This document shows positions 1 through 63,896 of a stretch of 64,000 nucleotides of DNA, in pieces. The position numbers were made by a program, and so were the translations under genes. Origin of the DNA: Nonlabens sp. YIK11 (GTDB lineage Bacteria; Bacteroidota; Bacteroidia; Flavobacteriales; Flavobacteriaceae); NCBI RefSeq assembly GCF_001413925.1, contig NZ_LBMJ01000001.1, positions 806,001-870,000 of the forward strand, in the 5' to 3' direction. The notes under the pieces are model-generated. The model was given only the letters and a program-made list of their open reading frames with translations. It made no database searches and was not told where the DNA came from. How positions within the stretch are numbered: the stretch's first letter is position 1; every line of letters begins with the position of its first letter.

Positions 1-12
1 TTTCGCGAAAGC
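1..12. repeat. Interspersed palindrome, copy 1 (cut by window edge)
   Basis: Right part of the GCTTTCGCGAAAGC palindrome. It is read in frame as F-A-K-A just before the mature part of the first OmpH protein, so it forms the signal-peptidase site. Confidence 0.8.
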
Positions 13-796
13 GCAAAGAGGCATAAGAGTTGGTTACGTTGATATGGAGTACATCTTAGAAAGCGTTCCAGAATACCAGAAAGCGTCAGAGCAATTAGAG
101 CAGCGCATGCAAGGATGGAAGACCGAAATCGAAAAGATGGAGTCTGAAATTGCCCAAATGGAGACTTCTCTCAAGAACGAACGCGTTTTGCTTACTAAGG
201 AATTGATAGAGGAGCGTGAAGAAGAAATAGGCATCAAGCGACAAGCCCTAAATGATTACCAGCAAAAAAGATTTGGCGCGCAAGGTGATTTCATCAAGCA
301 AAAACAACAGTTGATTCAACCAGTCCAAGATCAGGTATTCAACGAGATGCAAAAGATAGGTGAGCAAAAGAAGTATGACATGATCCTTGAGCGATCAGAG
401 ACTACCATGCTTTACAGCGATGACCGTCATGATTTGAGTGATGATGTATTAAGAGCCATAGGTCGTACCGGCAAGAAGGCAGATCGTGAAGAAAGAAATC
501 AGTCCAGAAATACTCCAGTTGAGGATGTCAAGGACGAGCCGTATATGTCAGTACAAGAAGCTGCAGATCGTCAGGAAAAAGTAGCTGCAAAAGAGGCGAT
601 CATTGATGAGAAGCAAGCCGCCAGAGCAGCAAAATTAAGATTTAGAGACAGCGTAAAAGAAGCTAGAGCAAGAGAATACCAAGAACGTAAAGAGGCAAGT
701 ATCAAAGAGCGACAACGTAGAAAAGACAGTGTTCTTGCCGCTCGCAAAGCAGATAAAGAAAAGAAGGAAAATAACAATCCTCCAGACAATAAATAA
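2..796 (+). CDS. OmpH/Skp family periplasmic chaperone (5' end outside window)
   Basis: Skp-like chaperones hold unfolded outer-membrane proteins in the periplasm. The frame is open from base 2, upstream of the first ATG at 44: it reads FAKAQRGIRVGYVDMEYILE, and GYVDMEYIL is the usual start of mature flavobacterial OmpH. So the ATG at 44 is internal and the true start with most of the signal peptide is off the window. After residue ~20 the protein is coiled-coil, rich in E, K and Q. Beyond the core it has a long charged Lys/Arg/Glu tail of roughly 110 residues, longer than E. coli Skp. A second OmpH gene follows after 60 bp, the usual tandem pair downstream of bamA in this group. Confidence 0.85.
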   Translation, partial: FAKAQRGIRVGYVDMEYILESVPEYQKASEQLEQRMQGWKTEIEKMESEIAQMETSLKNERVLLTKELIEEREEEIGIKRQALNDYQQKRFGAQGDFIKQKQQLIQPVQDQVFNEMQKIGEQKKYDMILERSETTMLYSDDRHDLSDDVLRAIGRTGKKADREERNQSRNTPVEDVKDEPYMSVQEAADRQEKVAAKEAIIDEKQAARAAKLRFRDSVKEARAREYQERKEASIKERQRRKDSVLAARKADKEKKENNNPPDNK

Positions 797-811
797 AGGT
801 TTCAAACCCAT

Positions 812-819
812 TATATTTG
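812..819 (+). promoter_or_regulatory. Candidate -7 element for the second OmpH gene
   Basis: TATATTTG matches the Bacteroidetes -7 consensus TAnnTTTG and lies 37 bp before the ATG at 857. No clear -33 TTG is present at the right distance, so this is tentative. Confidence 0.4.
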
Positions 820-856
820 CAGCCCGTTACCATAAAATAAAATAACAAAGTTGATA

Positions 857-1378: not shown

Positions 1379-1399
1379 GAATACACTTAAAAATACAAG

Positions 1400-5423: not shown

Positions 5424-5443
5424 TTCGCTTTCGCGAAAGCGAA
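5424..5443. repeat. Interspersed palindrome, intergenic copy
   Basis: Full 20-bp perfect palindrome TTCGCTTTCGCGAAAGCGAA between the tRNA terminator and the 3' end of the convergent marC-like gene. The rest of 5325-5497 shows nothing recognisable. Confidence 0.9.
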
Positions 5444-8783: not shown

Positions 8784-9707
8784 CTACGGTTGTAGCGATA
8801 AGTTTGCAGGTAAGCCGCCAATGGTAGTCAGTTTGATGGAAGCTACTTTAAGCGCAAATTCAACACACTGGTCTAAACTGCGGTTCTCCAGCATGGCGCA
8901 TAAAAATCCAGACCAGAATGCATCTCCAGCACCAGTAGCATCTTCTACAGATGTGATGGGAATGGCAGGCATTTCGAGTAAGGCGTGATCTCTACGCGAA
9001 ACTATCACTCCATTACCGCCGCGAGTAAGACAAATCAAATTCGCGCCGTAACCGTGAAGCGTTTCAAAAAGCTCACTGCTGGTCATCGCATCGCCATACA
9101 AGCGCTGCATATCATCCATACTTATTTTTATCATGGCGCCGTAGGAGCAGTATTTCTTAATCGTTTTGATCGCCTGATTCTTATCGGGCCATATTCTAGC
9201 AGAATAGTTGAGGTCGATGCTTATCAAACAACCGGCAGTAGCGGCCACCTTGACCTTTTCTAAAATAGTGTCACGTGCCGGATTGCGGCTTAAAGCAAAG
9301 CAAGTCGTGTGAAAAACAGCGGCTGATTTGATGACATCGTCAGGAAGCTGTGAGTTGATGATTTTACAGTCTGCTTCTCTATAGGCTATAAAGTCTGGAG
9401 TTTCAGAAGTTTTTGATACGAGTATGGTGCTCGTGGGAACGTCAGTTACTTTTCTCACATGATCCTGATTCATACCCAGCGATTGCATTTCCTGCAATAG
9501 AAAATCTCCTAAACCATCGTCTCCTATGGTTGCTACCAGCGTGGCCTTACAACCCAGCTTGGTGAGATTCATCGCCACATTTGCGGGCGATCCACCTAGA
9601 AAACGCTTGAACTCTGCCGTATGGGCGATGTCTGGACTGCTGTGCAAGCCTATAAAATCGATCAGGATCTCGCCCATGCAAATGACTTGTTTGTTGTTGT
9701 CTTTCAT
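8784..9707 (-). CDS. PfkB-family carbohydrate kinase, probable fructokinase
   Basis: Phosphorylates a sugar, most likely fructose, with ATP. 307 residues, the family norm. It begins VICMGEILIDFIG and has the N-terminal signature FLGGSPANVAMNLTKLG near residues 35-50. The C-terminal PfkB signature DATGAGDAFWSGF holds the catalytic base Asp262. The start codon overlaps the stop of the upstream glycosidase gene by one base (TGATG), so translation is coupled. Together with the transporter, glycosidase and LacI regulator, this points to fructose released inside the cell from sucrose. Specificity is inferred from context. Confidence 0.85.
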   Translation of the reverse strand: MKDNNKQVICMGEILIDFIGLHSSPDIAHTAEFKRFLGGSPANVAMNLTKLGCKATLVATIGDDGLGDFLLQEMQSLGMNQDHVRKVTDVPTSTILVSKTSETPDFIAYREADCKIINSQLPDDVIKSAAVFHTTCFALSRNPARDTILEKVKVAATAGCLISIDLNYSARIWPDKNQAIKTIKKYCSYGAMIKISMDDMQRLYGDAMTSSELFETLHGYGANLICLTRGGNGVIVSRRDHALLEMPAIPITSVEDATGAGDAFWSGFLCAMLENRSLDQCVEFALKVASIKLTTIGGLPANLSLQP

Positions 9708-10873
9708 CAGGATAGCAGTCTTTTACCGTTAATGTATTCCCTCAAGAGAATCTCTCCAGCAGCGCTCCAGGTGCAATATTTGATTCCTATGGCGGCTGTG
9801 GTCTGCGTATTGAAGTTTTCGTAATAGCCGTAATCCTCGGCGCTGTTCAGTTGTTTTATGTGGGCTAGGATTTCTTGGCTCTTGTCTTTATGCTGTCCGG
9901 CCAGTGCCATTCCATAAAAGCCGTTGACCATTTGCCAGGTGCCACCATTATGGAATTCATAGGCATAGTTGCGGAATTCATACTTGCAATTGTCCGTCAA
10001 TAATTCCCAATCCTTGTCGCCTTCCTGGATAGGCTCCCAAAAAGCAGGTAATAAGTTAAGCGGTAAAGTAGAGCGCAGCTGTTCTGAGTAGGTAATGACG
10101 CTTTCGCGAAAGCGAACTGAACCCAATCCCAGTAACAAAGCAATGGAATTTCCCAAGGCGTCAAACATGGTCTGATAACCCGATGGATTGATCGAAGCCA
10201 TCCAATAAGGCTTGTCTTCCAGTGATTTATAGGCCCTAGGATGAAACGGATGCTCAAAATTACCTGCGGTATAGTTGCCTTCCAGTATCGTAGTGATGGT
10301 ACTAATTTGTTCTTCCAAGACACTTGAAGGTTCTAAACTGTGTACGCAGCGTAAGGCCCAAAGTCGCAATACTTGATCGTAGAAGATGTGACCTTCCGTA
10401 ATATATTCGTCTGCCCAGTTTCCTGATCTGGGAACGTAGATCAAATGGTTGTTGTTGAATTCCCAAGCCTTGAGTAGCTGGAGTCCTTTATGGATTTTGG
10501 GAAGCATTTGTTTGAAAAAGTCCCTTTCACCGGTATGTGATGCATAATTGCAAACTCCTATAATAAACCAAGAAATGGTGTCAACACGGCCGGCAAGACC
10601 GCCAAAGCTAACTTCACTAGATCCGTTTTCTTTGAAGTGGACGTTTGAAGGTATGTGACCCAATTCATGCTGATGGCTGGCTAGGGTTTCTAGCGTAGAC
10701 TTAAAGGTCGCGATCAACGAGTCGTCACCATCCAGCAATGCGGCAAGTCCACAAATAACGCCGTCTCTAGCCCAGATGCGCTTGTAGTTGGAAATATCTG
10801 AAGCGCTGGCGAGAAAACCGCGATCTGATCGTGCAGCAGCCAAAAGACTTGATGGATCTTGAGTGATTTCCAT
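9707..10873 (-). CDS. Six-hairpin glycoside hydrolase, invertase/glucosidase-like
   Basis: 388 residues with no signal peptide, so cytoplasmic. It shows the (alpha/alpha)6-barrel pattern seen in amylo-1,6-glucosidase, GH63 and neutral invertase (GH100) proteins: YKRIWARDG at residues 30-38 with the conserved R-D pair, GRVDTISWFIIGV, and a C-terminal EFHNGGTWQMVNGFYG. I infer that it splits an imported disaccharide, probably sucrose, because it sits between a SUC-type transporter and a fructokinase. A glucosylglycerate or trehalose-like substrate cannot be excluded. The palindrome copy at 10099 is read as RFRES near residue 257. Confidence 0.75.
   Translation of the reverse strand: MEITQDPSSLLAAARSDRGFLASASDISNYKRIWARDGVICGLAALLDGDDSLIATFKSTLETLASHQHELGHIPSNVHFKENGSSEVSFGGLAGRVDTISWFIIGVCNYASHTGERDFFKQMLPKIHKGLQLLKAWEFNNNHLIYVPRSGNWADEYITEGHIFYDQVLRLWALRCVHSLEPSSVLEEQISTITTILEGNYTAGNFEHPFHPRAYKSLEDKPYWMASINPSGYQTMFDALGNSIALLLGLGSVRFRESVITYSEQLRSTLPLNLLPAFWEPIQEGDKDWELLTDNCKYEFRNYAYEFHNGGTWQMVNGFYGMALAGQHKDKSQEILAHIKQLNSAEDYGYYENFNTQTTAAIGIKYCTWSAAGEILLREYINGKRLLS
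10099..10114. repeat. Interspersed palindrome inside the glycosidase gene
   Basis: CGCTTTCGCGAAAGCG, perfect. Read in frame as R-F-R-E-S. Confidence 0.9.
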
Positions 10874-12694: not shown

Positions 12695-15328
12695 TTAGAA
12701 TCGGTATCCTAATCCTAGGGAAATGGATCTTCCAGGTACTGGACGTACTCTAATGAAATTGGTTTGACCTTCAGTAATTGCGCCTTCTTCAGACTCTGTG
12801 ATCCCTAAGGTGTCAAAGATGTTGTTGGCAGATAGGTTTGCTGTCAAATTGTTTGCGATCTGGAAGTTCACGTTACCACTTACAATCAAGAATGCAGGCA
12901 ATACCAACTGATTACTGTCTTGTGCAAAAGCCTTAGACTGTCCTAGAAAACTTAGGCCTACATTATTTTGTGACTCAGCGCCAAAGCTGTAGGATGGCAA
13001 GAAGTTATAGATAAAGTCTGGCTGTCTTCTAGGAGTGTTTCCTGCATTGTCACCAGAGTCAATTTCGGCATTGGTATACGTTACACCACCACGCAGGTTG
13101 AGGTTGTCAAATCTGTAAGTACCTTCTAGTTCAATACCTATAGACTTATAATCATTCTCAATAATTTGCTGTGAGGTTGCTTCAAAACCACCTTCTTCTG
13201 TTGTTTTTGCATAGAAAGCAGTCGCGTACAATGCACCGTTTTCAAATCCTTGTTTGTAACCTACTTCTGCTTGATTGATAAAGTCCAATGCGTTGATTGC
13301 ATCACCATCAAGATAGTTGAGTCCCGCAAAGAGTATTCTGTCAGCTTTCGCGGAAGCGCCTCTAGAATATCTTCCAAACACAGCTTGAGACTCTGATAAC
13401 TTCAAGTTAGCCCCTAAGGAATAAGAGAAATAGTCATAATCGTAATCTACCGTGGTAGGGTTTGCAACGTCAATAGCAGAAACAGACTGCTCGATAAACG
13501 AAATATCACCGTCATTGTTCACGTCATAAGTGGTTTGAACTGGTCCTGCAAAAGTTCCATCTACACGGCCTTTATCAAAACGAGCACTTGCATTGAAGTT
13601 GAGGTTTTCATTGGCCTCAATGGAAACGTCCACATAAGGAGCGCTCACATTATAATCAGTGTCATAGTTGCGCTGGCAACAGTTACCGAATAGGGTAGCG
13701 CCATAGCCAATAAGTCCGTTTTCACTACGAGCGTCGCCATTAGCTGCTGTTGCGTTGATCAATCTAGCGCGGTCTCCAGATGCTTCTAGCAAATAAGAGT
13801 TCCACAACCAGGACATGCTTACATTTTGATAAGATTTGAAGTATCCTAAAGTGATATCGATGTTGTCAAATGATTTGGACAACCTCGCATCATTCATAAA
13901 GTTGTTGAAGTTGTTGAGCTGTGTGTCAAACAAAACCGTTGGAGCAAGAATGGTGTTGCCAGGAACTGGGCTGCCGTCGTTTGCAAAAGTCAAGTTTGCA
14001 TAGTCACGTGAGGTAGCAAAATCACCTGCAAGAAAATCGTTAGCCGTCAAGACGCTCGCTGGAAATGGTGAGTTGAATCCACCTTTATTGAAGGAAAATC
14101 TACCGCGATTATCAAATCTCCAACCGTCTACCAGATCAAAGGAAGCCTCAACACCTACTGAGGTTGAAATAGGATTCATACCGTTTGCAACGTCAGATCT
14201 TCTCAATTCTCCACTGTCACCTAGACCTACATTTTGACGTAAGAATGGTGTGTGTAATGTTTGACCATTAGCATCAAACCCTGCGATGTCATTAAAATCA
14301 GGATCGGCGTTTGTTCCAGAAACAGCAATTGGATTAGGTAAGTAAGCAATAGCCTTGTCGTTAAGGTATTTAGCATATAATCTTACGTATCCTTTTTCAA
14401 ATTCTTTAGTGATATTGAACTTAAACTGACCACCATTGTTAGCCGTATAACCAGCATCTCGTATGCCTTCACCTACACGGTAGAAACCACCCATGTGAAA
14501 ATAAAGCCCGTCGGCGATAGGAGCGCCGTATTCAAAATCAGTTCTAAAGCTATTGTAATCTGCTCCAAAGGTTGTCCCTAGAGATCCACCTTCTACACGA
14601 CCTGTTTTGCTAATCAAGTTGATGATGGCACCAGGAGAATTTGAAGAAAGTGTTGATGCAGATCCACCACGTATGGCTTCAATTCTAGCGATATTGGAAT
14701 CGTATCTGGTAAAAATATCTGCAGTTGCAAAAGACATATCCCCAAAAAGCAGCACCGGTAAACCATCTTCCTGAATCTGTACATACTTTGATCCACCAGA
14801 AGAAACCGGCACACCACGTACAGCAATGTTGGAATTCCCTTCACCACCAGAAGATTCTGCGCGTATCCCTGGAATGGTTCTGAAGATCTCTGCCGTTGTT
14901 CTAGGTGCAGATTGTTCAATCACCGTAGGCGTTAGGGTAGTAATCGATACAGATGATTCTAATTTTGACTTTGGGTTTGCCACACCAGTAACAACGATGG
15001 CGTCTAGGGAAGCAGCATCTTCAGCAAGTTCAAAGTTGAGGACACGGTCAACACCTATAACGCTTAAGGACTTTTCTACTTTGGTGTAACCTATGGAGCT
15101 CGCAACAACGATGTAGTCGCCGTCTTCTACATTAGTAATGGTGTAGTTCCCATCAAAATCTGTAATAGCTCCTTTTGTAGTGTTTTGTAGTACAACATTG
15201 ACATTAAGTAATGGCGTACCGCTCGCGTCTGTGATTTTCCCAGTGATCTTGGACTGTGAGAAACCTACTAGACAAACAAAGAAAGCCAGTAGAAAGGCAA
15301 TCTTATGAATTGAAGTATTTGTTTTCAT
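12695..15328 (-). CDS. TonB-dependent outer-membrane receptor (probable sucrose or oligosaccharide uptake)
   Basis: 877 residues. A signal peptide ends at GFSQ (~24), followed by a carboxypeptidase-regulatory-like domain (ITGKITDASGTPLLNVNVVLQNTTKGAITDFDGNY starts the repeat), a plug domain (SVSITTLTPTVIEQ... IRGGSASTLSSNSPGAIINLIS) and a 22-strand barrel ending in GRSISLGLGYRF with the terminal Phe. There is no SusD partner, so it is the smaller non-SusC type. It is divergent from a LacI regulator, with twin operators between them. A degenerate palindrome copy gives RGASAKADR. The sugar specificity is inferred from neighbours. Confidence 0.88.
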   Translation of the reverse strand: MKTNTSIHKIAFLLAFFVCLVGFSQSKITGKITDASGTPLLNVNVVLQNTTKGAITDFDGNYTITNVEDGDYIVVASSIGYTKVEKSLSVIGVDRVLNFELAEDAASLDAIVVTGVANPKSKLESSVSITTLTPTVIEQSAPRTTAEIFRTIPGIRAESSGGEGNSNIAVRGVPVSSGGSKYVQIQEDGLPVLLFGDMSFATADIFTRYDSNIARIEAIRGGSASTLSSNSPGAIINLISKTGRVEGGSLGTTFGADYNSFRTDFEYGAPIADGLYFHMGGFYRVGEGIRDAGYTANNGGQFKFNITKEFEKGYVRLYAKYLNDKAIAYLPNPIAVSGTNADPDFNDIAGFDANGQTLHTPFLRQNVGLGDSGELRRSDVANGMNPISTSVGVEASFDLVDGWRFDNRGRFSFNKGGFNSPFPASVLTANDFLAGDFATSRDYANLTFANDGSPVPGNTILAPTVLFDTQLNNFNNFMNDARLSKSFDNIDITLGYFKSYQNVSMSWLWNSYLLEASGDRARLINATAANGDARSENGLIGYGATLFGNCCQRNYDTDYNVSAPYVDVSIEANENLNFNASARFDKGRVDGTFAGPVQTTYDVNNDGDISFIEQSVSAIDVANPTTVDYDYDYFSYSLGANLKLSESQAVFGRYSRGASAKADRILFAGLNYLDGDAINALDFINQAEVGYKQGFENGALYATAFYAKTTEEGGFEATSQQIIENDYKSIGIELEGTYRFDNLNLRGGVTYTNAEIDSGDNAGNTPRRQPDFIYNFLPSYSFGAESQNNVGLSFLGQSKAFAQDSNQLVLPAFLIVSGNVNFQIANNLTANLSANNIFDTLGITESEEGAITEGQTNFIRVRPVPGRSISLGLGYRF
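13344..13357. repeat. Interspersed palindrome, one-mismatch copy in TonB receptor gene
   Basis: GCTTTCGCGGAAGC, one change from the perfect core. Read on the minus strand as A-S-A-K-A. Confidence 0.6.
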
Positions 15329-16985: not shown

Positions 16986-17771
16986 TTAGTCTATTTTCTC
17001 ACTCAAGTATTTCCAGTATCGTTTTGGGACGTGTTGCAGGTGCAGCTTCATGTTTTTGCGCGATTCTATGTTGACGCTCTTGAAATATTGATTCCATAGA
17101 TCACGGTAGTTGTTTTCGCTTTCGCGAAAGCGAGATTCCTGACCAGCTAACTTATTAGTCACGCCTCTTTTTGCTATAGGATCATCAAATTTTATGGTGA
17201 TCTCTTCTACTTTTTCCAAGTCATAGGAGATCCCAAAATCTCTCTTCAAATCGTAAATGATCCATTTTTGATCTGCATATCTATTTTTAAAATGGCTGCT
17301 TATGAGTGGCAACACATTAAAATCTGGCTCGCAATTAGCATAATACACGTCGCCGTCTATGAGGTGAAAGCGTATGAAGGCCTCCATGCGGTGCTTCTCG
17401 CGGCCTACCATTTTGGCAGCTTGCGAAATTTTCAAAACGGTCGAGTTCCCGTAATCTCCAAACGGTGCTTTGTTATTCTCAAAGGTGGTCCTGCAATACT
17501 CAAAAAGCGTATTCTCGATTCCTATAATTTCACTTAAAAAGGCGCGATAGAGATCGTAAAAATCGTTTTTGCTGGTGAGTTCCTGCAGTTTTTTTAAAAC
17601 ACGTTCTGCCTTGTCGTGTTCTGTAATTACGGTATGTGCCTCACCAAACAGCTGGTTCTGCACCTGCGATTCTGGCTGGATGATGGGGCTTTTTATCTTG
17701 TGGGCATAAATGGTAAAAACCGTGGTCAAAAAACCATTGAAAGAACCATCATAAGTCAAGACATTGTTCAT
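16986..17771 (-). CDS. SAM/UDG-linked DUF4130 protein (TIGR03915-like), probable DNA repair
   Basis: 261 residues. The N-terminus NVLTYDGSFNGFLTTVFTIY and the central YGNSTVLKISQAAKMVGREKHRMEAFIRF match the family that always accompanies a particular radical SAM protein. In many bacteria the DUF4130 part is fused to a uracil-DNA-glycosylase-like domain; here only the DUF4130 part with a C-terminal extension is present. The start overlaps the radical SAM stop by 4 bp, so they are co-translated. The palindrome copy is read as SRFRESEN in a likely linker near residue 218. Role in nucleic-acid repair is inferred from the family name and neighbours. Confidence 0.82.
   Translation of the reverse strand: MNNVLTYDGSFNGFLTTVFTIYAHKIKSPIIQPESQVQNQLFGEAHTVITEHDKAERVLKKLQELTSKNDFYDLYRAFLSEIIGIENTLFEYCRTTFENNKAPFGDYGNSTVLKISQAAKMVGREKHRMEAFIRFHLIDGDVYYANCEPDFNVLPLISSHFKNRYADQKWIIYDLKRDFGISYDLEKVEEITIKFDDPIAKRGVTNKLAGQESRFRESENNYRDLWNQYFKSVNIESRKNMKLHLQHVPKRYWKYLSEKID
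17116..17133. repeat. Interspersed palindrome in DUF4130 gene
   Basis: Perfect 18-bp palindrome TCGCTTTCGCGAAAGCGA. Read as R-F-R-E-S-E. Confidence 0.9.
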
Positions 17772-19030
17772 GAAAATAGGCTTAATTGATTGGTGAAGTT
17801 CTTGCTGTACTTGCTATTGCCTGATAATAGGATTTGGTTCTTTATTTGTATGCCCGTAAGATCGCGCGTCTCAAATTCCCTTGAATTGCACGTGATGAAA
17901 TACTTGCTACGGTTCATAGAGATCCCAATGGCTTTTAAGTGTTCCCAGTTGAGTTTTCTATAACGGCGTGCACTCAATATTTTGCCTACTGATTTTAAAC
18001 CAACTCCAGGAATACGTGCCAGCATTCTCTTTTCTGCCTTGTTGATGTCTACAGGGAATTGATCCAGGTTGCGTAGTGCCCACGAAAGTTTGGGATCAAT
18101 ATCCATGTCCAGATTCTGGTACTGGTCGTTGAGTATTTCCCGCACGTCAAAACCATAAAAGCGCAATAGCCAGTCCGTTTGATAGAGTCGGTTCTCACGC
18201 ATCATAGGGACTTCAGTTCCTAAGGCAGGCAATCTGGAGTCATCTGCCACTGGTACGTAACCAGAATAATAGACGCGCTTCATCTGGAACTTATTGTAAA
18301 AATAGTTGGCGCTGTACATCACATCACGATCGCTTTCACCAGTAGCGCCCACGATCATTTGGGTACTTTGCCCGGCAGGTGCATAAACTGGTGTGCTCTT
18401 GATGATCTTTTTTTCTGACTTATAAATCTGGATAGAGTTTTGAACCGCTTTCATGGGCTGTATAAAATCCTTGTGGTCCTTATCTGGCGCCAGTAATTTC
18501 AAGCCAGCTTTTGTAGGAATCTCAATATTTACTGATAGCCTATCTGCATATAGTCCAGCTTCCTGCATCAGTTCATCGCTCGCGCCAGGTATGGATTTGA
18601 GGTGAATGTACCCGTTGAAGTTTTCTTCCAGGCGCAGTTTTTTTGCCACTCGTATCAACCGTTCCATGGTGGCGTCTGGACTTTTGAAGATTCCAGAGCT
18701 CAAGAAAAGGCCTTCAATGTAATTGCGTCTGTAAAAATTGATGGTAAGATCTACCACTTCTTGAACGGTAAACGCAGCACGTTTGATATCGTTTGATTTG
18801 CGGGTCACGCAGTAGGCGCAGTCAAAGATGCAAACGTTAGTCAATAGAATTTTGAGCAGTGATACACAACGACCATCTTCAGTATAGCTATGGCAAATTC
18901 CCATACCGCTGGAATCGCCCAGTCCTTTGTTTTTGTTTTGTCGTTTGCTACCGCTACTGCTGCAACTCACGTCATACTTTGCAGCATCTGCCAGTATCTC
19001 CAGTTTTTCCTTTATTCTCTCGTAATTCAT
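17768..19030 (-). CDS. Putative DNA modification/repair radical SAM protein (TIGR03916-like)
   Basis: 420 residues. A 4Fe-4S cluster site is visible as C67-x3-C71-x2-C74 (NVCIFDCAYC), preceded by a conserved CHSYTEDGRC segment that may hold a further cysteine pair. The C-terminus has a helix-hairpin-helix (RIPGVGLKSVGKIL, about residues 345-358), a DNA-binding motif rare in radical SAM enzymes. This layout is that of the UDG-linked radical SAM family. Its reaction is unknown. It is coupled to the DUF4130 gene and lies next to two translesion polymerases and an SRAP protein, which supports a repair role. Confidence 0.87.
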   Translation of the reverse strand: MNYERIKEKLEILADAAKYDVSCSSSGSKRQNKNKGLGDSSGMGICHSYTEDGRCVSLLKILLTNVCIFDCAYCVTRKSNDIKRAAFTVQEVVDLTINFYRRNYIEGLFLSSGIFKSPDATMERLIRVAKKLRLEENFNGYIHLKSIPGASDELMQEAGLYADRLSVNIEIPTKAGLKLLAPDKDHKDFIQPMKAVQNSIQIYKSEKKIIKSTPVYAPAGQSTQMIVGATGESDRDVMYSANYFYNKFQMKRVYYSGYVPVADDSRLPALGTEVPMMRENRLYQTDWLLRFYGFDVREILNDQYQNLDMDIDPKLSWALRNLDQFPVDINKAEKRMLARIPGVGLKSVGKILSARRYRKLNWEHLKAIGISMNRSKYFITCNSREFETRDLTGIQIKNQILLSGNSKYSKNFTNQLSLFS

Positions 19031-19152
19031 AATCGTTGCCCACGTATGTGAGTGTTTTTGCTTAGTTCAAATCTTCTTTATGTCACGCCGCTACATAGCG
19101 GTACTGGTTAGAGGTGATCTCAATGCTCCTTAAAAGAACATCAGTGACTCTA

Positions 19153-22299: not shown

Positions 22300-22373
22300 T
22301 TTTAAAAACAAGCTTATCTACAATGGACAAATGGCTTAAACATTTTACTTCTAGGTAGCTCTTGACTACGCTC

Positions 22374-22393
22374 GAGTAAGTTTTTGCTTACTC
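22374..22393. other. Inverted repeat between dinB and dnaE2
   Basis: GAGTAAG-N6-CTTACTC in the 102-bp gap. It lacks a T-run on the minus strand, so it is not a clear terminator. It may be a regulatory or mRNA-structure element. Confidence 0.4.
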
Positions 22394-22401
22394 TTTACTC
22401 T

Positions 22402-23619: not shown

Positions 23620-23656
23620 GATAGTTACTCGGTATTGGTATTTTTAAAATAAGTGG

Positions 23657-23688
23657 TCAAAAAACCTCACAGTTTTTACTGTGAGGTT
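23657..23688 (-). terminator. Terminator of the SRAP operon
   Basis: Perfect 11-bp stem AACCTCACAGT/ACTGTGAGGTT with a four-base loop; on the minus strand followed by TTTTTTGACC. It closes the SRAP/91-residue unit, so dinB needs its own promoter in the 40 bp left. Confidence 0.85.
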
Positions 23689-23717
23689 GCCGGTATTTCA
23701 AATAATGAGAGGTGGTT

Positions 23718-23993
23718 CTAGTCCTCTATGTTTTTGATGATGATATCGTTGACGCTGGGCTCCAGCATACTGATCAATCCATCCAGCTCTTTATTGCTGG
23801 AGAACTCGATACCGTTCGTCTGTAATATTTCATACAAGGTCTCGTATACTTTTTTGACCAGGTTATCCGCATCTGCCACTTTATCCTTCCAGGTTTTAAG
23901 TGGAATAGTGGAGTTTGCTTTGCGCCTGGAAGCCATCAAGTTCTGGACTCTTAGGGCTAGATCTGCTTTTATGTGCTCAATGTCCATCACCAT
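23718..23993 (-). CDS. Uncharacterised 91-residue protein in the repair operon
   Basis: Begins MVMDIEHIKADLALRVQNLM and is predicted mainly helical, with a basic stretch (ASRRKANSTIPLKTWKDKVAD) and an acidic C-terminus. No signal peptide, so cytoplasmic. I do not recognise the family. It starts 3 bp after the SRAP stop codon and ends before a strong terminator, so it is co-expressed with the SRAP protein under the LexA-like repressor. A DNA-binding or accessory repair role is only a guess from position. Confidence 0.6.
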   Translation of the reverse strand: MVMDIEHIKADLALRVQNLMASRRKANSTIPLKTWKDKVADADNLVKKVYETLYEILQTNGIEFSSNKELDGLISMLEPSVNDIIIKNIED

Positions 23994-23996
23994 TAT

Positions 23997-47250: not shown

Positions 47251-48444
47251 ATGAAACTGAATAAACTTTTAATACTGTTTTTATCTGCTATTGCACTTAC
47301 TAATTGTACGAGCGATGATACTGCAGATATCGTAATCAACATAAATAATGGCGGTACAGGTACGAGTGGTGCTGTGAATATTAGCGGTGTCTACACAGAG
47401 AATCTAACACTAGATGCAAACACAGAATATCTTATCAATGGTCCATTGTTGATGAGTAGAGGTACCACGCTTACTATTCCTGCAGGTACTACACTTAAAG
47501 CACAGCCAGTAGGTGTTAATGCGTATATCGCAATACAGCAAGGAGCAAGAATTGATGCTCGCGGTACTCAAAGCAATCCTATCGTATTGACTTCTGCAGC
47601 AGCAGATCCTCAATCTGGAGATTGGGGTGGCTTGATCATATTAGGAAATGCACCTATCAATTCGACTGCTGCTGGTTCTACAGACACTGCAACTTCTGAA
47701 GTTGGACAACTTTCTTATGGTGGTAATGAAGTAGCTGATAATTCTGGAACTATTTCTTACCTACGTATTGAATATGCAGGTGGAGCAATCGACGGAAATG
47801 CAGAATTGAACGGTCTTTCTTTATACGCAGTTGGAAATGGAACAAGTATCGATCACGTTCAGGTTTACCTAGGATCCGATGATGGTGTCGAATTCTTTGG
47901 TGGTACGGTAAATCTTGATTTTGTTTCAGTAGTTGGAGCAGAGGACGATTCTATTGACTGGACAGAAGGTTATAGAGGTAACTTGTCTAACGTTTATGTA
48001 GAGCAGCTAGCTAGTGCAGATGGAGACAGTGGATTTGAAATGGATGGTTTCAATACAGATTTCTCTCTAGAAGACACTTCTTTACTATCAAGACCAACCG
48101 TGAGCAACGTAAGTATTGTTGGTAACAATGACAACAGTAGAGCATTTAGAGTTCGTGCAGGATCTGGCGGAATCTTCACAAATGTCGTAATATCAAACAC
48201 AGGTAGAGGTGTTGTAGTAGAAGATGACGAGTCTGCCTTCAGAACAAGCGATAACATACCAGACGACTTATTGTTTACTGATGTAGCCTTTACAAACGTG
48301 ACTACAGAGTATTCTTATGGATTTGAAACTGGAGTAGGAACCGCAAACCCAGCACCAACTCAAGCTGATGTTATAAAAGGTACCTCTGCAAATGCAACAG
48401 GTACAGATTATGCCACTTGGGGTGCAGGTTGGACTAGAAACTAA
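47251..48444 (+). CDS. Lipoprotein with beta-helix-like repeats, partner of TonB receptor
   Basis: 397 residues. Lipobox at ALTNCTSDD, Cys ~19. The body has many short Gly/Ser/Asn/Thr-rich strands (GTTLTIPAGTTLKAQP, GDWGGLIILGNAPIN, DHVQVYLGSDDGVEFFGGTVN, VVGAEDDSIDWTEGYRGN), like a right-handed parallel beta-helix. The DWGGLIILG and DDSIDWTEGYRG segments recur in flavobacterial proteins that sit next to such receptors. It may capture the substrate at the surface. Co-transcribed with the receptor; terminator follows. Confidence 0.75.
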   Translation: MKLNKLLILFLSAIALTNCTSDDTADIVININNGGTGTSGAVNISGVYTENLTLDANTEYLINGPLLMSRGTTLTIPAGTTLKAQPVGVNAYIAIQQGARIDARGTQSNPIVLTSAAADPQSGDWGGLIILGNAPINSTAAGSTDTATSEVGQLSYGGNEVADNSGTISYLRIEYAGGAIDGNAELNGLSLYAVGNGTSIDHVQVYLGSDDGVEFFGGTVNLDFVSVVGAEDDSIDWTEGYRGNLSNVYVEQLASADGDSGFEMDGFNTDFSLEDTSLLSRPTVSNVSIVGNNDNSRAFRVRAGSGGIFTNVVISNTGRGVVVEDDESAFRTSDNIPDDLLFTDVAFTNVTTEYSYGFETGVGTANPAPTQADVIKGTSANATGTDYATWGAGWTRN

Positions 48445-48533: not shown

Positions 48534-48549
48534 CGCTTTCGTGAAAGCG
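48534..48549. repeat. Interspersed palindrome, one-mismatch intergenic copy
   Basis: CGCTTTCGTGAAAGCG: the central CG has become TG on one strand, a CpG-to-TpG change. Upstream of the phosphate transporter. Confidence 0.7.
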
Positions 48550-48636
48550 AACTAAAACACTCCTATATTTATAACCTTATCATAACGTACAAGTTCCAGC
48601 AAAAGACCATTTTTGCGGATTAATATTTCTATAAAA

Positions 48637-50904
48637 ATGGGAGACATTTATATCTACATGCTCATCATTCTCGCCGGTCTGGCGATCACTGACCTTGTTG
48701 TTGGTGTTAGTAATGATGCGGTAAACTTCTTGAACAGTGCCATAGGTTCCAAGGCCATAAGCTTCAAGACCATCATGATCATTGCCAGTCTGGGAATCGC
48801 GCTGGGCGCGCTATCCAGCAGCGGTATGATGGAAGTGGCACGTAAGGGAATCTTTAATCCAGGTGAGTTCTACTTTGACGAGATCATGATCGTCTTTATG
48901 GCTGTGATGATTACAGACGTCCTCTTGTTGGACTTCTTCAACAGTATGGGATTGCCTACATCCACTACGGTTTCCATCGTTTTTGAATTGTTGGGTGCCG
49001 CGGTTTGTATGTCGTTGCTCAAGATAGGCGAGAGCGACACAGAGACTTTTCTGGATCTGGGCAAGTATATCGCCAGTGATACGGCCATAGAGATTGTTAG
49101 CGGCATCCTACTATCGGTGGTTATTGCCTTTACTATAGGTGCGCTGGTGCAGTTTTTATCGCGATTGATGCTGACCTTTAATTACAGCAAAAGACCCGCT
49201 TTTCTGGCCGGTATTTTTGGCGGTCTTTCCCTAACCAGCTTGTATTACTTCATCCTTGTCAAAGGACTTAAAGGCGCAGACCTGGGCGCGCTTAATTTTA
49301 TATTTGATTACACGACAGACGTTTATACCACTTTAGGTTATGGATTCATATTTTGGTTGGTATTCAGTTTGATCTATGTGTACGTCTTGAAATGGGATAT
49401 CTATAAACTGATTATCATTTTGGGAACCTTTGGTCTTGCGATGGCTTTTGCCGGTAATGACCTTGTGAATTTCATTGGTGTGCCAATAGGTGCCTACGAT
49501 GCCTACAACGTATGGTCTGCAGCAGGTTCGCCAGCAGACTTTACCATGGATGCACTTGCAGGTCAACTGCCTAGCCAGAGATGGTTATTACTACTCGCGG
49601 GTGTTGTAATGGTATTGACTTTATGGTTCTCGTCTAAAGCCCAAGCGGTAGTGAAGACTTCTGTAGACCTCGCGAGACAAGACAGCGGTACAGAGCGTTT
49701 CAAATCTAACGCCTTGTCTAGATACCTTGTACGTTACTCCATTCTAGCCGCCGAAGGCGTTGAACGCATCATGCCTGCCAAAGCAAGTGCCTACATCTCA
49801 AAAAGATTTGAGAAGGCACCATCGCTGGGAATCGTTTCAAAAAATGCAGATAAACCGGCCTTTGACTACGTTAGAGCGTCAGTCAACCTAATGGTGGCAA
49901 GTATACTTATTTCTTTGGCAACATCCTATAAGTTACCATTATCCACGACTTATGTGACCTTTATGGTGGCTATGGGAACCTCGCTGGCAGATAAAGCTTG
50001 GGGAACAGAAAGCGCGGTGTACCGTATTGCTGGAGTTCTTAACGTAATAGGTGGTTGGTTCTTTACTGCCTTTAGTGCGTTTACCGCAGCTGCGATATTT
50101 GCCTATATCATTTATTGGGGTGGCTTTTATGCTATTATAGGATTGGTCGTTCTTGCCGTGGTCTTGATCACACGCAGTTTTATCATGCACAAGCGATCAC
50201 AGACACAACAAAAGGTGACTGACGAGCTTCAAAAGGCCGAAAGCAACACCATACAAGGAATTATCGAGGAAAGCTCTGAAACGGTCGCTACCGTCTTTAA
50301 ACGTGCTAGAGATATGTATAGCAACACGCTGGAAGGATTGATTACCCAAGATCTGGGTAGTCTTAAATCGGGTCGCAAGGCCACCAAAAAACTGGCGGTA
50401 GAAATCGATGGTTTGCGCAACAACATCTACTTTTTTATCAAAAACCTTGATGAAAAAAGTATAGGAGCCAGTAAATTCTACATCGACGTGTTGGGACATT
50501 TACAGGATATTTCCCAGTCGTTGGAATACATCTCGCGTTCCAGTACAGACCACATCAACAACAATCACAAGAGCCTTAAGTTTACGCAGATCAAGGATTT
50601 AAAAGAGATCATTGAGCGCATTCAGAAGATTTTTGACGATTCTAAAAAGATCTTTAAGTCTAAGGAATTTAGCGGTCTTGAGAAGATCATTTACGAGAAG
50701 CGCGAGTTGCTTCAACTGGTGGACAGCAAGATTGAAAAGCAGGTCAAGCGCACAAAGAATACTGACGAGTCTCCTAAAAACACCACGCTATACTTCGGTT
50801 TGTTGCTCGAGACCAGAGACCTTATGAACGTGACCATTCAGGTGGCAGAGCAGTACTATTCAGAATACGACGCGAGCAGGTTCGATAACGAGGAAAGCGA
50901 GTAA
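48637..50904 (+). CDS. Inorganic phosphate transporter (PiT family) with PhoU-like C-terminal domain
   Basis: 755 residues from the ATG at 48637 (MGDIYIYMLIILAG); a TTG at 48613 is unlikely. Ten or more membrane helices and both PiT signature repeats (GVSNDAVNFLNSAIGSKA and GNDLVNFIGVPIGAYDAY). The GLPTSTT and LPLSTTYVT motifs are also present. After residue ~540 the chain turns soluble and helical (RDMYSNTLEGLITQDL...LDEKSIGASKFYIDVLGHLQDISQSLEYI), resembling the PhoU/DUF47 fold that is usually a separate protein. So transporter and regulator are fused. Sodium- or proton-driven phosphate uptake is likely. Confidence 0.92.
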   Translation: MGDIYIYMLIILAGLAITDLVVGVSNDAVNFLNSAIGSKAISFKTIMIIASLGIALGALSSSGMMEVARKGIFNPGEFYFDEIMIVFMAVMITDVLLLDFFNSMGLPTSTTVSIVFELLGAAVCMSLLKIGESDTETFLDLGKYIASDTAIEIVSGILLSVVIAFTIGALVQFLSRLMLTFNYSKRPAFLAGIFGGLSLTSLYYFILVKGLKGADLGALNFIFDYTTDVYTTLGYGFIFWLVFSLIYVYVLKWDIYKLIIILGTFGLAMAFAGNDLVNFIGVPIGAYDAYNVWSAAGSPADFTMDALAGQLPSQRWLLLLAGVVMVLTLWFSSKAQAVVKTSVDLARQDSGTERFKSNALSRYLVRYSILAAEGVERIMPAKASAYISKRFEKAPSLGIVSKNADKPAFDYVRASVNLMVASILISLATSYKLPLSTTYVTFMVAMGTSLADKAWGTESAVYRIAGVLNVIGGWFFTAFSAFTAAAIFAYIIYWGGFYAIIGLVVLAVVLITRSFIMHKRSQTQQKVTDELQKAESNTIQGIIEESSETVATVFKRARDMYSNTLEGLITQDLGSLKSGRKATKKLAVEIDGLRNNIYFFIKNLDEKSIGASKFYIDVLGHLQDISQSLEYISRSSTDHINNNHKSLKFTQIKDLKEIIERIQKIFDDSKKIFKSKEFSGLEKIIYEKRELLQLVDSKIEKQVKRTKNTDESPKNTTLYFGLLLETRDLMNVTIQVAEQYYSEYDASRFDNEESE

Positions 50905-50925: not shown

Positions 50926-50947
50926 GTTCGCTTTCGCGAAAGCGAAC
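50926..50947. repeat. Interspersed palindrome, intergenic copy
   Basis: Longest perfect copy (22 bp: GTTCGC arms around the core). Between convergent phosphate transporter and RND genes. Confidence 0.92.
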
Positions 50948-55750: not shown

Positions 55751-57136
55751 TCAGTCTTGGTCATTGTTGGTTAGATATTCTGGTGTGTTGAGTACGGTCT
55801 CTAGGGCAGCCTTATTTGTGATGACCTGATACATACTGTTGAGGTACTCGCTTTGTGCTTCATAAAGTTGGGTTTGTGCCTGTCTCAAATCAAAGCTGGT
55901 AGCGATACCTTCTGTAAATTTTATTTCGTTTTTGTTTTCAATGCGCTCTGCGAGCTGCAGATTTTGTTTGCTTGTGAAATAGGTGTCTATCGCCAGTTGA
56001 TATTCATTGACGGCACGTTCATATTCCAACTCAATTTCCTGTTCTGCACGCACTTGATCTGTCAATGCTTGATCCCATGCAATTTTTGCACGATCCACTC
56101 GCGCCTTTCTACCAAAAGAAGTAAACACGGGCCAGTTAATGCTCAATCCAGCAATGGACTGTTGGAACCATTGCGTGTTGCTATTAAAGAACACAAAATC
56201 ATCATCAAATGCTTGCGTCCCATAATTCACAAAGGCAGTGACTTTAGGCAACGCCTTGCTGCGTTCCAGTTTGTATTCCAGTCTGCGTTGTTCAGAAAGG
56301 TTTCTAGCAATTTGATAATCCACGCTTTGCTCCAGGTTGAGGTTCTCATTGGTTAACGCAGGATCGATGGTTTTTAGGGCCAGACTTTCCAAATCATCTT
56401 TTAAGGTAATGGTTTCCTTAAGGTCAATTCCTAAAGCCAGTTGGAGCATATTCATCGCAATCTCAGTTTGTCGACGCGCGCTGTTGAGCTGGTTGGTCAA
56501 CTGTAAATATGTGATTTGTAATTGCTCGACATCTTCTTCTTCAGTAAGTCCGTTCTCGTAAATCTTGCGAGTCTCGTTGAGGTTTTTTTCTACTGTCTCA
56601 AGATTCCGGGTTACGATATCCACGTTTTCTTGGGATAATAGCACGCCGCCATAAGCGTTGATGACACCTTTGCGCACTTCCAGTTTAGTCTTGTTATTGG
56701 AATTTTCAGAAAAATCCAGGAATGTTTTTGAGGCTTCCAGCGCCACAATGTAGCTACCGTCAAAGATGATCTGGGAAAGAGTGGCCGTAAGATTAGCACT
56801 CTGTTTAGGCGAGAATGCTACGGGAACAAAAGTTCCAGGCTCGCCGCCAGCAATTTCTCCTGGTAGTGGCGTGATGGGTTGTTTGAGCTGATTTTGATAG
56901 TCTGCCGTACCAGTGACTTGCGGCAGGCCAGTTGCTGTAGTTTCCCATTTTTGCTTGAGCGCTGCGGCGATATCTCGCTTGGCGTTCAAGGCTTGGTAGT
57001 TGTTGCTGAGCGCAAAATCGATGGCTTCTTCCAGAGTGAAAGCATAACTCTCCAGACCAGTTGTGGTTTGTTGCGAGTTCGCTTTCGCGAAAGCGAAAAA
57101 CATCAAAATCAACGTCACATAGGATAATCTGTTCAT
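55751..57136 (-). CDS. TolC-family outer-membrane efflux channel
   Basis: 461 residues. Signal peptide MNRLSYVTLILMFFAFAKA; the palindrome at 57078 encodes FAFAKAN, i.e. the hydrophobic end and the AKA cleavage site. Mature part has two OEP repeats: SYAFTLEEAIDFALSNNYQALNAKRD and DYQIARNLSEQRRLEYKLERSKALPKV, with long helices (DVEQLQITYLQLTNQLNSARRQTEIAMNMLQLALG). One bp behind the TetR gene, overlapping or abutting the MFP gene, so one operon. Confidence 0.92.
   Translation of the reverse strand: MNRLSYVTLILMFFAFAKANSQQTTTGLESYAFTLEEAIDFALSNNYQALNAKRDIAAALKQKWETTATGLPQVTGTADYQNQLKQPITPLPGEIAGGEPGTFVPVAFSPKQSANLTATLSQIIFDGSYIVALEASKTFLDFSENSNNKTKLEVRKGVINAYGGVLLSQENVDIVTRNLETVEKNLNETRKIYENGLTEEEDVEQLQITYLQLTNQLNSARRQTEIAMNMLQLALGIDLKETITLKDDLESLALKTIDPALTNENLNLEQSVDYQIARNLSEQRRLEYKLERSKALPKVTAFVNYGTQAFDDDFVFFNSNTQWFQQSIAGLSINWPVFTSFGRKARVDRAKIAWDQALTDQVRAEQEIELEYERAVNEYQLAIDTYFTSKQNLQLAERIENKNEIKFTEGIATSFDLRQAQTQLYEAQSEYLNSMYQVITNKAALETVLNTPEYLTNNDQD
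57078..57097. repeat. Interspersed palindrome in the tolC-like signal peptide
   Basis: Perfect 20-bp TTCGCTTTCGCGAAAGCGAA. Read F-A-F-A-K-A-N at the signal-peptidase site. Confidence 0.92.
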
Positions 57137-60453: not shown

Positions 60454-60473
60454 TTCGCTTTCGCGAAAGCGAA
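60454..60473. repeat. Interspersed palindrome, intergenic copy
   Basis: Perfect 20-bp TTCGCTTTCGCGAAAGCGAA, 3 bp from the stop of the small outer-membrane protein gene. The remainder of 60257-60453 shows nothing recognisable. Confidence 0.92.
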
Positions 60474-61028: not shown

Positions 61029-61093
61029 TGTCTGAAGTTATAGTGCAATCGTTATAAATATACAAAACGCTATGCCGTACAAAGCCAATTCTT

Positions 61094-61101
61094 TACTTTT
61101 G
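61094..61101 (+). promoter_or_regulatory. -7 element for sucA
   Basis: TACTTTTG matches TAnnTTTG, 38 bp before the ATG at 61140. No clear -33. Confidence 0.5.
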
Positions 61102-61139
61102 CTATAATTATCGAAAACGGGACTTTTCCCGATAGATTT

Positions 61140-63896
61140 ATGGATAAATTTTCTTTTCTAAATGCAGCACACACTGCATTCTTTGCACAACTTTACGATG
61201 AATATCTAATCAATCCAGACCGCGTGGAGCCATCGTGGCGCGCATTTTTCCAAGGCTTTGATTTTGGAATGGAGTCTGCTGGTGATGGTGAGGTACAGGT
61301 AGTTTATGAAGATAGAGGCGAGACCAAAACAGTGGACGTGTCTGAAAAGATGCGCAAGGAGTTTGAGGTCGTCCAGCTTATTGATGGCTACAGGACTCGT
61401 GGTCACTTATTTACAAAAACCAACCCAGTAAGGGAACGTCGCAAATACGAGCCTACTTTAGAACTATCCAACTTTGGACTGTCTGATGCAGATTTGAATA
61501 CAGAGTTTGAATCTGGCGAATTGATCGGTTTAGGTAAAACCACCTTGAAGAATATTGTCAATCACTTGAAGCAAGTGTATTGTGAGAGTATTGGTGTAGA
61601 GTACATGTATGTGCGTTCTCCAGAGCAGGTCAAATGGATACAGAGCTGGTTGCATAGAAACAACAACCATCCAGAATTTGATAAATCCCAAAAATTACAG
61701 ATTCTTAAGAAGCTTAATGAGGCTGTTTCTTTTGAATCCTTTTTACATACAAAATACGTAGGACAGAAACGTTTCTCTCTGGAAGGGAACGAGTCGTTGA
61801 TTCCTGCATTGGACAGCTTGATTGAAAACGCTGCAGATAAAGGCGTGAATCAGTTTGTACTGGGAATGGCGCACCGTGGTCGTTTGAATGTGTTGAGTAA
61901 CATCTTCGGCAAGCCGGTGTCTGATATCTTTTCAGAATTTGATGGTAAGGATTATGAGCAGGATATTTTTGATGGTGACGTTAAGTATCACTTAGGTTAC
62001 ACCAGCAAACGTAAAACCGATAATGGGAATCAAATCAACATCAACATTGTTCCCAACCCATCACACTTAGAAACCGTAGGCGCTGTAGTAGAAGGTATTG
62101 CACGAGCAAAACAAGACATGCACACGCCAGACGATTTTTCTAAAGTATTGCCTATTGTATTGCACGGTGATGCGGCGATCGCAGGGCAAGGCGTGGTTTA
62201 TGAGGTGGTGCAAATGGCAAAACTGGATGCCTACAAAACCGCTGGTACCATTCACCTAGTGGTGAACAACCAGGTAGGTTTTACCACTAATTATCTAGAT
62301 GCAAGATCCAGTACTTATTGTACCGACATTGCCAAAGTGACTTTGTCGCCTGTACTTCACGTTAATGCAGACGATGCAGAAGCTGTGGTACACGCCATGA
62401 ACTTTGCATTTGAATATAGAATGCAGTTCCAGAGTGATGTATTTATCGACCTGTTGGGTTATAGAAAATACGGTCACAATGAAGGTGACGAGCCACGATT
62501 CACGCAACCACAATTGTATAAGGCTATCAGCAAGCATGAAAATCCGCGAGATATTTATGCAGATAAATTGTTGAAAGCTGGAGTCATTGAGGAAAATACA
62601 GTGGCAGATCTAGAGAAGGACTACAAAGACAAATTGGAGGATCAATTGATCACTTCCAGAAAACAAGAAAATACAGTGATCACGCCATTCATGCAGGATG
62701 AATGGGAAGGTTATGAAACGGCAGATGAAGAAATGATGATGAAGGTCGTCAAGTCTGGCGTGAAGAAAAAGACCCTTGAAGAGATCACTAAAACTATATC
62801 AACATTACCTAAGGATGAGAACTTCATCCGCAAGATCAAGAAGATTGTAGAATCCCGTCAGCAAATGTGGGATGAGGACAAATTGGATTGGGCCATGGGC
62901 GAGCACCTAGCTTATGGTTCCTTGATGCTGGAAGGCTACAATGTAAGAATGAGCGGTCAGGACGTGGAACGTGGTACTTTTTCTCACCGTCATGCGGTAG
63001 TGAAATCCGAGAATCACGAGCACGAATTTATTCTGCACAATTTCTTGGATGCAGAAGGTAAGATGGAAATCTACAATTCACACCTTTCAGAATATGGAGT
63101 GGTAGGTTTTGAATACGGTTATGCCATGGCACAGCCAGAGACCTTGACCATTTGGGAAGCACAATTTGGTGATTTCTCAAACGGTGCACAAATCATGATT
63201 GACCAGTACATCAGTGCTGGCGAGGACAAATGGAAAAATCAAAACGGACTGGTATTGCTATTGCCACATGGTTATGAAGGCCAAGGTGCAGAGCATTCCA
63301 GTGCAAGAATGGAGCGTTATCTACAATTGTGTGCTAAAGACAATATGTGGATGGCAAACTGTACGACGCCAGCAAACATGTTTCACTTGTTGAGACGCCA
63401 GATGCTGGTCAACTACCGCAAGCCGTTGACCGTTTTTACGCCTAAATCATTGTTGAGAAGCCCACGTGCAGTGAGCTCTATTGACGAGTTTGTCAACGGT
63501 CATTTTCAAGAAGTGATCGATGTGGATGGTGACGCTTTCGCGAAAGCGGAAACCCTAGTATTCACCAGTGGTAAATTCTACTATGATCTATTGGAATATA
63601 GAGAAGAACACGACCGCAATGACGTTGTCCTTGTACGTGTGGAACAATTGTTCCCGCTACCGGTGGAGCAGATCAAGGAAGTGATCAAAAAATACGGATC
63701 CAAGGATGTCGTATGGGCGCAGGAAGAACCGCGCAACATGGGAGCTTATTCCCATTTAATGTTACACATGCCAGAAACCAGAACATGGCGCGTGTGCTCA
63801 AGAAACATGTATGCCGCACCAGCTAGTGGAAGCTCTACGAGATCCAAAGCGAGACAGGCACGAGTAATAGAAGACGTATTTAATACCAACAAATAG
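61140..63896 (+). CDS. sucA: 2-oxoglutarate dehydrogenase E1 component
   Basis: Thiamine-dependent decarboxylation of 2-oxoglutarate in the TCA cycle. 918 residues. The N-terminal tail (NAAHTAFFAQLYDEYLINPDRVEPSWRAFFQGFD) is the typical E1o segment that contacts the E2 core. The ThDP part has GMAHRGRLNVL, LHGDAAIAGQGVVYE and NNQVGFTT; the C-terminal half has GTFSHRHAV and LLPHGYEGQGAEHSSAR. The palindrome copy gives GDAFAKAETLVF. Four bp later sucB starts. Confidence 0.96.
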   Translation: MDKFSFLNAAHTAFFAQLYDEYLINPDRVEPSWRAFFQGFDFGMESAGDGEVQVVYEDRGETKTVDVSEKMRKEFEVVQLIDGYRTRGHLFTKTNPVRERRKYEPTLELSNFGLSDADLNTEFESGELIGLGKTTLKNIVNHLKQVYCESIGVEYMYVRSPEQVKWIQSWLHRNNNHPEFDKSQKLQILKKLNEAVSFESFLHTKYVGQKRFSLEGNESLIPALDSLIENAADKGVNQFVLGMAHRGRLNVLSNIFGKPVSDIFSEFDGKDYEQDIFDGDVKYHLGYTSKRKTDNGNQININIVPNPSHLETVGAVVEGIARAKQDMHTPDDFSKVLPIVLHGDAAIAGQGVVYEVVQMAKLDAYKTAGTIHLVVNNQVGFTTNYLDARSSTYCTDIAKVTLSPVLHVNADDAEAVVHAMNFAFEYRMQFQSDVFIDLLGYRKYGHNEGDEPRFTQPQLYKAISKHENPRDIYADKLLKAGVIEENTVADLEKDYKDKLEDQLITSRKQENTVITPFMQDEWEGYETADEEMMMKVVKSGVKKKTLEEITKTISTLPKDENFIRKIKKIVESRQQMWDEDKLDWAMGEHLAYGSLMLEGYNVRMSGQDVERGTFSHRHAVVKSENHEHEFILHNFLDAEGKMEIYNSHLSEYGVVGFEYGYAMAQPETLTIWEAQFGDFSNGAQIMIDQYISAGEDKWKNQNGLVLLLPHGYEGQGAEHSSARMERYLQLCAKDNMWMANCTTPANMFHLLRRQMLVNYRKPLTVFTPKSLLRSPRAVSSIDEFVNGHFQEVIDVDGDAFAKAETLVFTSGKFYYDLLEYREEHDRNDVVLVRVEQLFPLPVEQIKEVIKKYGSKDVVWAQEEPRNMGAYSHLMLHMPETRTWRVCSRNMYAAPASGSSTRSKARQARVIEDVFNTNK
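63533..63548. repeat. Interspersed palindrome in sucA
   Basis: CGCTTTCGCGAAAGCG, perfect. Read as A-F-A-K-A. Confidence 0.9.

Follow-up and report, generated by a model that had tools for sequence, protein, structure and literature searches.

A dyad-symmetric DNA element of about 54 bp, centered on the 14-bp palindrome GCTTTCGCGAAAGC, recurs throughout the genome of Nonlabens sp. YIK11 (G000, 3.26 Mb), and is examined here starting from a window of 64,000 nucleotides (contig NZ_LBMJ01000001.1, positions 806,001–870,000), the whole stretch of DNA analyzed. It is a selected or driven, genome-wide recognition site, which selection or drive keeps at about one copy per 4 kb in the chromosomes sampled. 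Some DNA-reading machine probably depends on the palindrome. We tentatively propose, at a rough probability of 0.38, that it serves as a self-DNA tag read by a putative dyad-symmetric machine of DNA uptake or recombination.

The 14-mer occurs 752 times in this genome, and its reversed control not once. All 23 genus genomes examined carry 288–857 copies each, so that the repeat, which a first-pass annotation had noticed in the window, is neither confined to it nor short of a genome-wide excess. Among 36 other genomes counted alongside them, G033 has six copies and 35 have none. A survey of 397 genomes of the family Flavobacteriaceae (237 genera by tally) gave matches in 80. Leaving aside the four members of the genus in this sample, high counts are confined to G250 (857 copies in 3.6 Mb) and G234 (408 copies in 3.2 Mb, roughly half the density), with one genome per genus, and the other 74 matching genomes hold 1–19 copies each. 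At the level of the phylum, 22 of 395 genomes match, namely 14 of the 41 that belong to the family and, with one copy each, 8 of the 354 that do not. In a tree of Dxs, a single gene whose inner branches are weak, G250 and G234 are paired (support 0.97) beside G188, which has nine copies, and apart from the genus. Motif-poor genera lie between the two rich lineages, and the tree does not join these as sister groups. Genome pieces of about 12–22 kb from other Bacteroidota gave no iterated palindromic 12-mer, a weak negative as the pieces are short; a few non-palindromic 12-mers occur there at three to seven copies (seven in L092, four in L072 and L075).

Matches with at most two mismatches number 20 in the window, whereas 100 dinucleotide shuffles gave 0.22 on average and never more than 2. 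Over 864 kb of the same genome, forms with 0, 1, 2 and 3 mismatches occur 195, 18, 16 and 54 times, against means of 0, 0.12, 3.05 and 25.0 for 153 shuffled palindromes, although individual controls yield up to 178 two-mismatch and 205 three-mismatch forms. The changes in one-mismatch copies are found near the center as well as at the ends.

The 14-bp core described by the first-pass annotation is real, but the element is longer than this core. A near-invariant CGCTTTCGCGAAAGCG is flanked by two arms of about 19 bp. The core, (C)GCTTTCGCGAAAGC(G), is dyad-symmetric, and on each strand the arms are C-poor 5′ of the core and G-poor 3′ of it. Of 106 pooled copies, 95% carry G at position 8 from the dyad, and as far as about position 27 G is scarce to the right and C to the left. 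This arm profile is alike in G014 and G250, hence nearly the same in a distant genus, and weaker in the 12 copies sampled from G234. Intergenic copies display it sharply, with G at 1%–12% at positions 9 to 27 (91 copies, three genomes). Across 220 sites, the left and right arms do not covary past position 9; at position 9 the covariation has a z of 3.7, yet the base differs between genomes and the signal may come from pooling. The arms thus represent base preferences rather than an extension of a hairpin. Each site holds 38.8 bits of information (core 27.9, position 8 3.6 and arms 7.3), whereas 12.1 bits suffice to locate 752 sites. The dyad symmetry and the long arms, apparently read independently on each side, support the first-pass suggestion of a binding site, as far as sequence can tell. 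A period-3 pattern in the arms, considered as a sign of RecA-like reading, is also present in intergenic copies but weak in one frame class, and was not used.

Comparison of orthologs revealed how sites are gained and how firmly they are held. The gene dxs contains two sites. At the first, 10 of 21 genus orthologs have a perfect core, none of the 21 has a gap, and the 11 without the site align ungapped; the second is perfect in 14 of 22, altered by one or two changes in five and absent from three. The dxs of G001, which is split, was not counted, and L123 is not long enough to include the first site. One locus thus documents that a site can arise through substitutions in place, and others presumably arose likewise. 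Across a 64-kb region of six genomes, 237 ortholog comparisons were scored, giving 220 intact sites, 14 with one mismatch, one with five and two gapped; the remaining 248 of 485 comparisons were unscored (153 without a hit, 52 at an edge and 43 with a poor flank). With G004 left out as too near to G000, 129 of the 140 scored orthologous sites are preserved intact, whereas among control 14-mers from those alignments 55 of 1320 are. Identity of the arms at 11–20 bases from the core is 0.683, compared with 0.72–0.74 farther out, indicating that the arms past their first ten bases are not extra-conserved. Substitutions to G are rarer in the arms (221/1282) than farther out (2288/7567). At joined position 30546 of the G020 region, the site is intact in G020 and, in the window ortholog, is disrupted in G000 and G004 by another inverted-repeat-like sequence, which in G000 reads GTCTGCCTGCCGGCAGAC.

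The majority of copies are genic, as the first-pass annotation had stated, but intergenic DNA is enriched about fourfold. With a simple open reading frame (ORF) caller making the split, 59 of 194 classified copies in 864 kb of G000 are intergenic, though only about 8% of the sequence is non-coding; the corresponding counts are 8 of 49 in G014 and 24 of 62 in G250. The palindrome has no stop codon in any frame, and a larger sample corroborated the use of all three frames, which encode AFAKA, RFRES and SLSRK in 74, 32 and 29 of 135 genic copies, respectively. Tandem, convergent and divergent gaps hold 54, 15 and 25 copies, against 52.3, 17.6 and 24.2 expected by length; the intergenic preference is indifferent to gene direction. 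A promoter role is unsupported, given this placement and the lack of arm covariation. The first tenth of genes holds 46 of 209 copies, an excess that may reflect over-long ORF starts. Intervals between copies are more even than random (coefficient of variation 0.47–0.71 in eight genomes), and those below 1 kb number 4 in G000, 1 in G014 and 2 in G250, compared with 22.7, 10.3 and 12.2 expected, respectively. In successive 0.4-Mb steps away from a parS-like pair, the density is 0.261, 0.200, 0.211, 0.225 and 0.200 per kb. The chromosome of G000 also has a near-empty stretch, with one copy in 40 kb at 1.00–1.04 Mb, and a stretch with none in 20 kb at 2.66 Mb, which is phage-like by eye. The second contig of G000 (C2, 29 kb) has no site within two mismatches. 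This contig is plasmid-like, and its first 8 kb or so are repeated at its end, perhaps reflecting a circular molecule assembled past its start.

Mobile DNA carries copies as well. All 16 copies of G120 lie inside 78 kb of one contig, and 18 of 19 copies in G330 and 16 of 17 in G095 lie on two contigs with shared spacings, whereas those of G188 and G372 are mostly scattered. The low counts in other genera at first looked like relics, a reading that does not suit the clustered copies of G120, G330 and G095. For the element in G120 and G330, one protein has close relatives in the genus of the window, and recent transfer is the best explanation of its copies there. The G120 copies belong to an integrative element of about 85 kb (C3, about 31–116 kb, limits by eye) adjoining an ftsZ-like ORF. 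Its genes include a serine recombinase, a Zot/A32-like ATPase, a type IIG restriction-methylase and, by eye, metal-efflux-like genes; PADLOC gave no match for its four-gene SMC-like operon, which is Wadjet-like by size. Relatives of the ATPase at 94%–98% identity are found in the genus members G013, G006 (two) and G002, with partial ones in G004 and G010, whereas the remaining 17 genus members searched, G234 and G250 have none. The element therefore lives in some motif-rich hosts too. Islands in several genera, with metal-efflux-like genes by eye, share sequence and sites; in comparison with the G120 element, sites are intact in 45 of 68 cases and control 14-mers in 4397 of 17,447. Pattern scans of IMG/VR returned at least 128 loci, and among the matches listed 38 combine host-like arms with a G+C content under about 0.45; some of these overlap on a shared contig, and chance may account for others. 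Among the matches listed, 17 further sites occur in the 304,563 bases, overlaps included, of the 24 host-like-arm loci that reach 9 kb or more, and three in the 413,575 bases of 34 other loci. Proteins on these phage loci include a tape-measure protein and a phrog_310 transposase, with relatives in many phages, including those of Flavobacterium and Winogradskyella. A 30-base query against phage and plasmid records gave chance-level matches only (E about 2 or more).

Five features place the self-DNA tag at the top of our ranking, namely the excess information, the mismatch ladder, the indifference to gene direction, the spacing and the patchy absence. In the proposed model, one symmetric DNA-binding machine, the same across motif-rich genera, would recognize core and arms on any replicon. 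DNA with a copy within a few kb would be favored in exchange between cells of the group, by specific uptake and then recombination, and copies would thereby be gained and held. A second copy nearby would add little, leading copies to space out. Site-poor stretches are expected in this model, since copies would accrue with residence, and the stretches seen here may be recent. The uptake sequences of Neisseriaceae (DNA uptake sequences) and Pasteurellaceae (uptake signal sequences), like the flavobacterial element, have an invariant core, weak flanks and intergenic enrichment. The over-representation of DNA uptake enhancing sequences is reported to fall steeply with mismatches (PMC1939737), and the mismatched forms of the palindrome show the same graded over-representation. 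The flavobacterial element differs from them in being palindromic, in occurring on an integrative element and phage contigs, and in being known here without a receptor. Within the family as named there, Riemerella columbina is described as undergoing self-preferring natural transformation, and k-mers of up to 10 bp yielded no confirmed uptake sequence there (PMC7965970). The uptake tag, one of several roles listed at first pass, is compatible with the data, though unproven.

Several observations weigh against the self-DNA tag. The uptake sequences known to us are non-palindromic. The near-permanent positions would fit a structural need equally well, and identity near sites is not raised between G000 and three relatives, revealing no homogenizing recombination; in G004 it is even slightly lower at 30–250 bases (0.955) than at 2–3 kb (0.968). 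The G120 element, with 16 sites in about 85 kb, approaches the density of host chromosomes, and phage contigs with host-like arms reach about a quarter of it; an uptake tag would not obviously have to occur on either. Moreover, Flavobacterium johnsoniae is reported as not competent, and competence as not universal in the family (PMC7965970). It is possible, though we would not wager on it, that the palindrome represents a novel kind of self-tag, long, dyad-symmetric and armed by base composition, with every long-resident replicon, be it chromosome, integrative element or phage, gaining copies every few kb, and with its reader present in two distant lineages of one family.

The main rival is a dimeric chromosome-organizing protein, active in nucleoid bridging, domain formation or segregation, with a high-affinity anchor every few kb. 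We regard it as possible and rank it close behind, because positions are stable and mobile DNA carries sites. It would account for the dyad symmetry with independently read arms (n = 220), for near-permanent positions spaced more evenly than chance, for the sites on the integrative element and phage contigs, and for a density that barely shifts away from parS (0.26 to 0.20 per kb). The 38.8 bits per site, however, far exceed the 12.1 needed for location, the genome tolerates stretches almost devoid of sites and a second contig with none, and there is neither a gap opposite the parS pair nor a cluster at it beyond 0.26 per kb. The sites of parS, Noc and SlmA are palindromes of 14–16 bp bound by dimers, in about ten to a hundred copies. 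The flavobacterial palindrome differs from them in its hundreds of copies and small change with parS distance, and the parS-like pair is separate from it. This pair consists, on the chromosome of G000, of two perfect sites 1.9 kb apart (G000:C1 600556–602461), and it recurs in every one of the 12 genus members tested, with one or both sites perfect, and in all 14 motif-rich genomes; G250, G234, G188 and G084 have it with one mismatch. Six of 12 motif-poor genomes lack a parS-like match even when one mismatch is allowed; the reversed control gave 0–2 per genome. A ParB of about 300 amino acids is present exactly once in each of 26 genomes, with longer ParB-domain proteins in both groups, and in an alignment of 20 sequences (about 315 columns) only columns 96 and 249, judged by eye to lie outside the recognition helix, split 12 motif-rich from 8 motif-poor genomes. 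ParB or a Noc-like paralog is thus disfavored as the reader, given the lack of a second ParB of this size in the 26 genomes, the separate parS-like pair and the two splitting columns. Scans for ParB, C5-methylase and RecC yielded no reader protein; they did not extend to AddAB, N4/N6 methylases or competence genes.

A palindromic Chi-like or roadblock site, guarding DNA ends from resection and promoting repair in both directions, appears unlikely. Escherichia coli Chi has a similar density of about one per 4 kb and likewise occurs both within and between genes. The strands of the palindrome, G/T-rich 5′ of the core, would leave RecA-favored ends on either side, and sites on phage contigs and the integrative element would also suit such a role. 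Nevertheless, known Chi sites are far shorter than 14–16 invariant bases and non-palindromic, and RecC was found in none of 26 genomes (E. coli control detected; AddAB not scanned), which led us to reject RecBCD. Still less likely is a methyltransferase that modifies the core and thereby makes and holds it, in the manner of highly iterated palindrome 1 (HIP1). These palindromes, with extensions and alternates, are described in cyanobacteria and linked to methyltransferases (PMC4390886). The resemblance drawn at first pass stands in so far as both are palindromes iterated genome-wide, with palindromic extension, specific to a lineage and of unsettled function. The flavobacterial core of 14–16 bp with arms of about 19 bp is, in contrast, longer than the 8–10 bp of HIP1; it occurs about once per 4 kb, its sequence is GCTTTCGCGAAAGC rather than HIP1 GCGATCGC or a cyanobacterial alternate, and mismatches lie near its center too, unlike the end bias described for HIPs (PMC4390886). 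C5-methylase, the one methylase type scanned for and found in seven of 14 motif-rich and six of 12 motif-poor genomes, is excluded as the general cause, being absent from the other seven motif-rich genomes, G000 and G234 included. Furthermore, methylases are not known to read 54 bp. A mobile palindrome (a repetitive extragenic palindrome, a miniature inverted-repeat transposable element or an insertion sequence), inserted and tolerated, as also raised at first pass, could explain hundreds of identical cores free of stop codons, but is very improbable, since the 11 siteless orthologs of the first dxs site align ungapped, just two of the 237 scored comparisons are gapped, and flanks differ among the copies compared. 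An RNA hairpin or terminator has equally little to commend it: the consensus 24-mer folds alone (−9.3 kcal/mol as DNA), yet the arms do not covary past position 9, the 3′ arm is A/C-rich rather than T-rich, and convergent gaps show no excess.

In the window itself, all 15 perfect cores of the first-pass annotation were recovered, at coordinates shifted by 0–4 bases, and profiles of NCBIfam and Pfam, applied to the genes, agreed with its gene names. The first bases of the window (1–12) are the last 12 of the 14 bases of a core cut by its edge. The mutS gene holds a near copy only (2748–2761, two mismatches), followed by a perfect core between mutS and a marC-type gene, with arms of about 20 bp per side (5427–5440). 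Another perfect core, intact in G004 and G020, lies in the ORF at 9707–10873 (10100–10113), and a TonB-receptor-like gene has a one-mismatch copy (13344–13357), the identical variant being present in the same two genomes. Three perfect and two near copies fall in a run of repair-related genes at 16986–24824. These are a perfect core in a TIGR03915 putative DNA repair gene (17118–17131), three copies in a gene for a DnaE-type polymerase, namely a weak one with two mismatches that was added to the four near copies already listed (19420–19433), one with a single mismatch that is identical in G004, G020 and G019 (20213–20226) and a perfect one (21913–21926), and a perfect core in an SRAP-domain gene (24751–24764). 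Further perfect cores are located in the ORF at 27818–28795 (28618–28631), a waaA/kdtA-type gene (29995–30008), aspS (36584–36597), the 5′ and 3′ parts of dxs (38328–38341 and 39899–39912) and a dGTPase gene (43808–43821). Between the ORFs at 47251–48444 and 48613–50904, a one-mismatch copy (48535–48548) is perfect in G004, G020 and G022. The remaining perfect cores are intergenic past a PHO4-family gene (50930–50943), in an outer membrane efflux (TolC-like) gene (57081–57094), intergenic (60457–60470) and in a sucA-type gene encoding an E1 component (63534–63547).

In the literature text searched, neither the 14-mer nor its inner 12-mer was found, and the phrase 'iterated palindrom' was never joined with Bacteroidetes; titles and abstracts in literature searches contained nothing on the palindrome sequence. 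We know of no established uptake or recombination signal in Bacteroidota. In this phylum, the palindrome is a clear-cut example of a signal that extends genome-wide, genes included, and is strongly maintained. Its two separated rich lineages, with motif-poor relatives between them, give a sharp pattern of presence and absence that should reveal the reader protein. Should the palindrome serve a chromosome organizer, few sequence-specific organizers would be denser. As an uptake tag, it would be without precedent in the phylum, and could explain self-preferring transformation such as that of Riemerella columbina.

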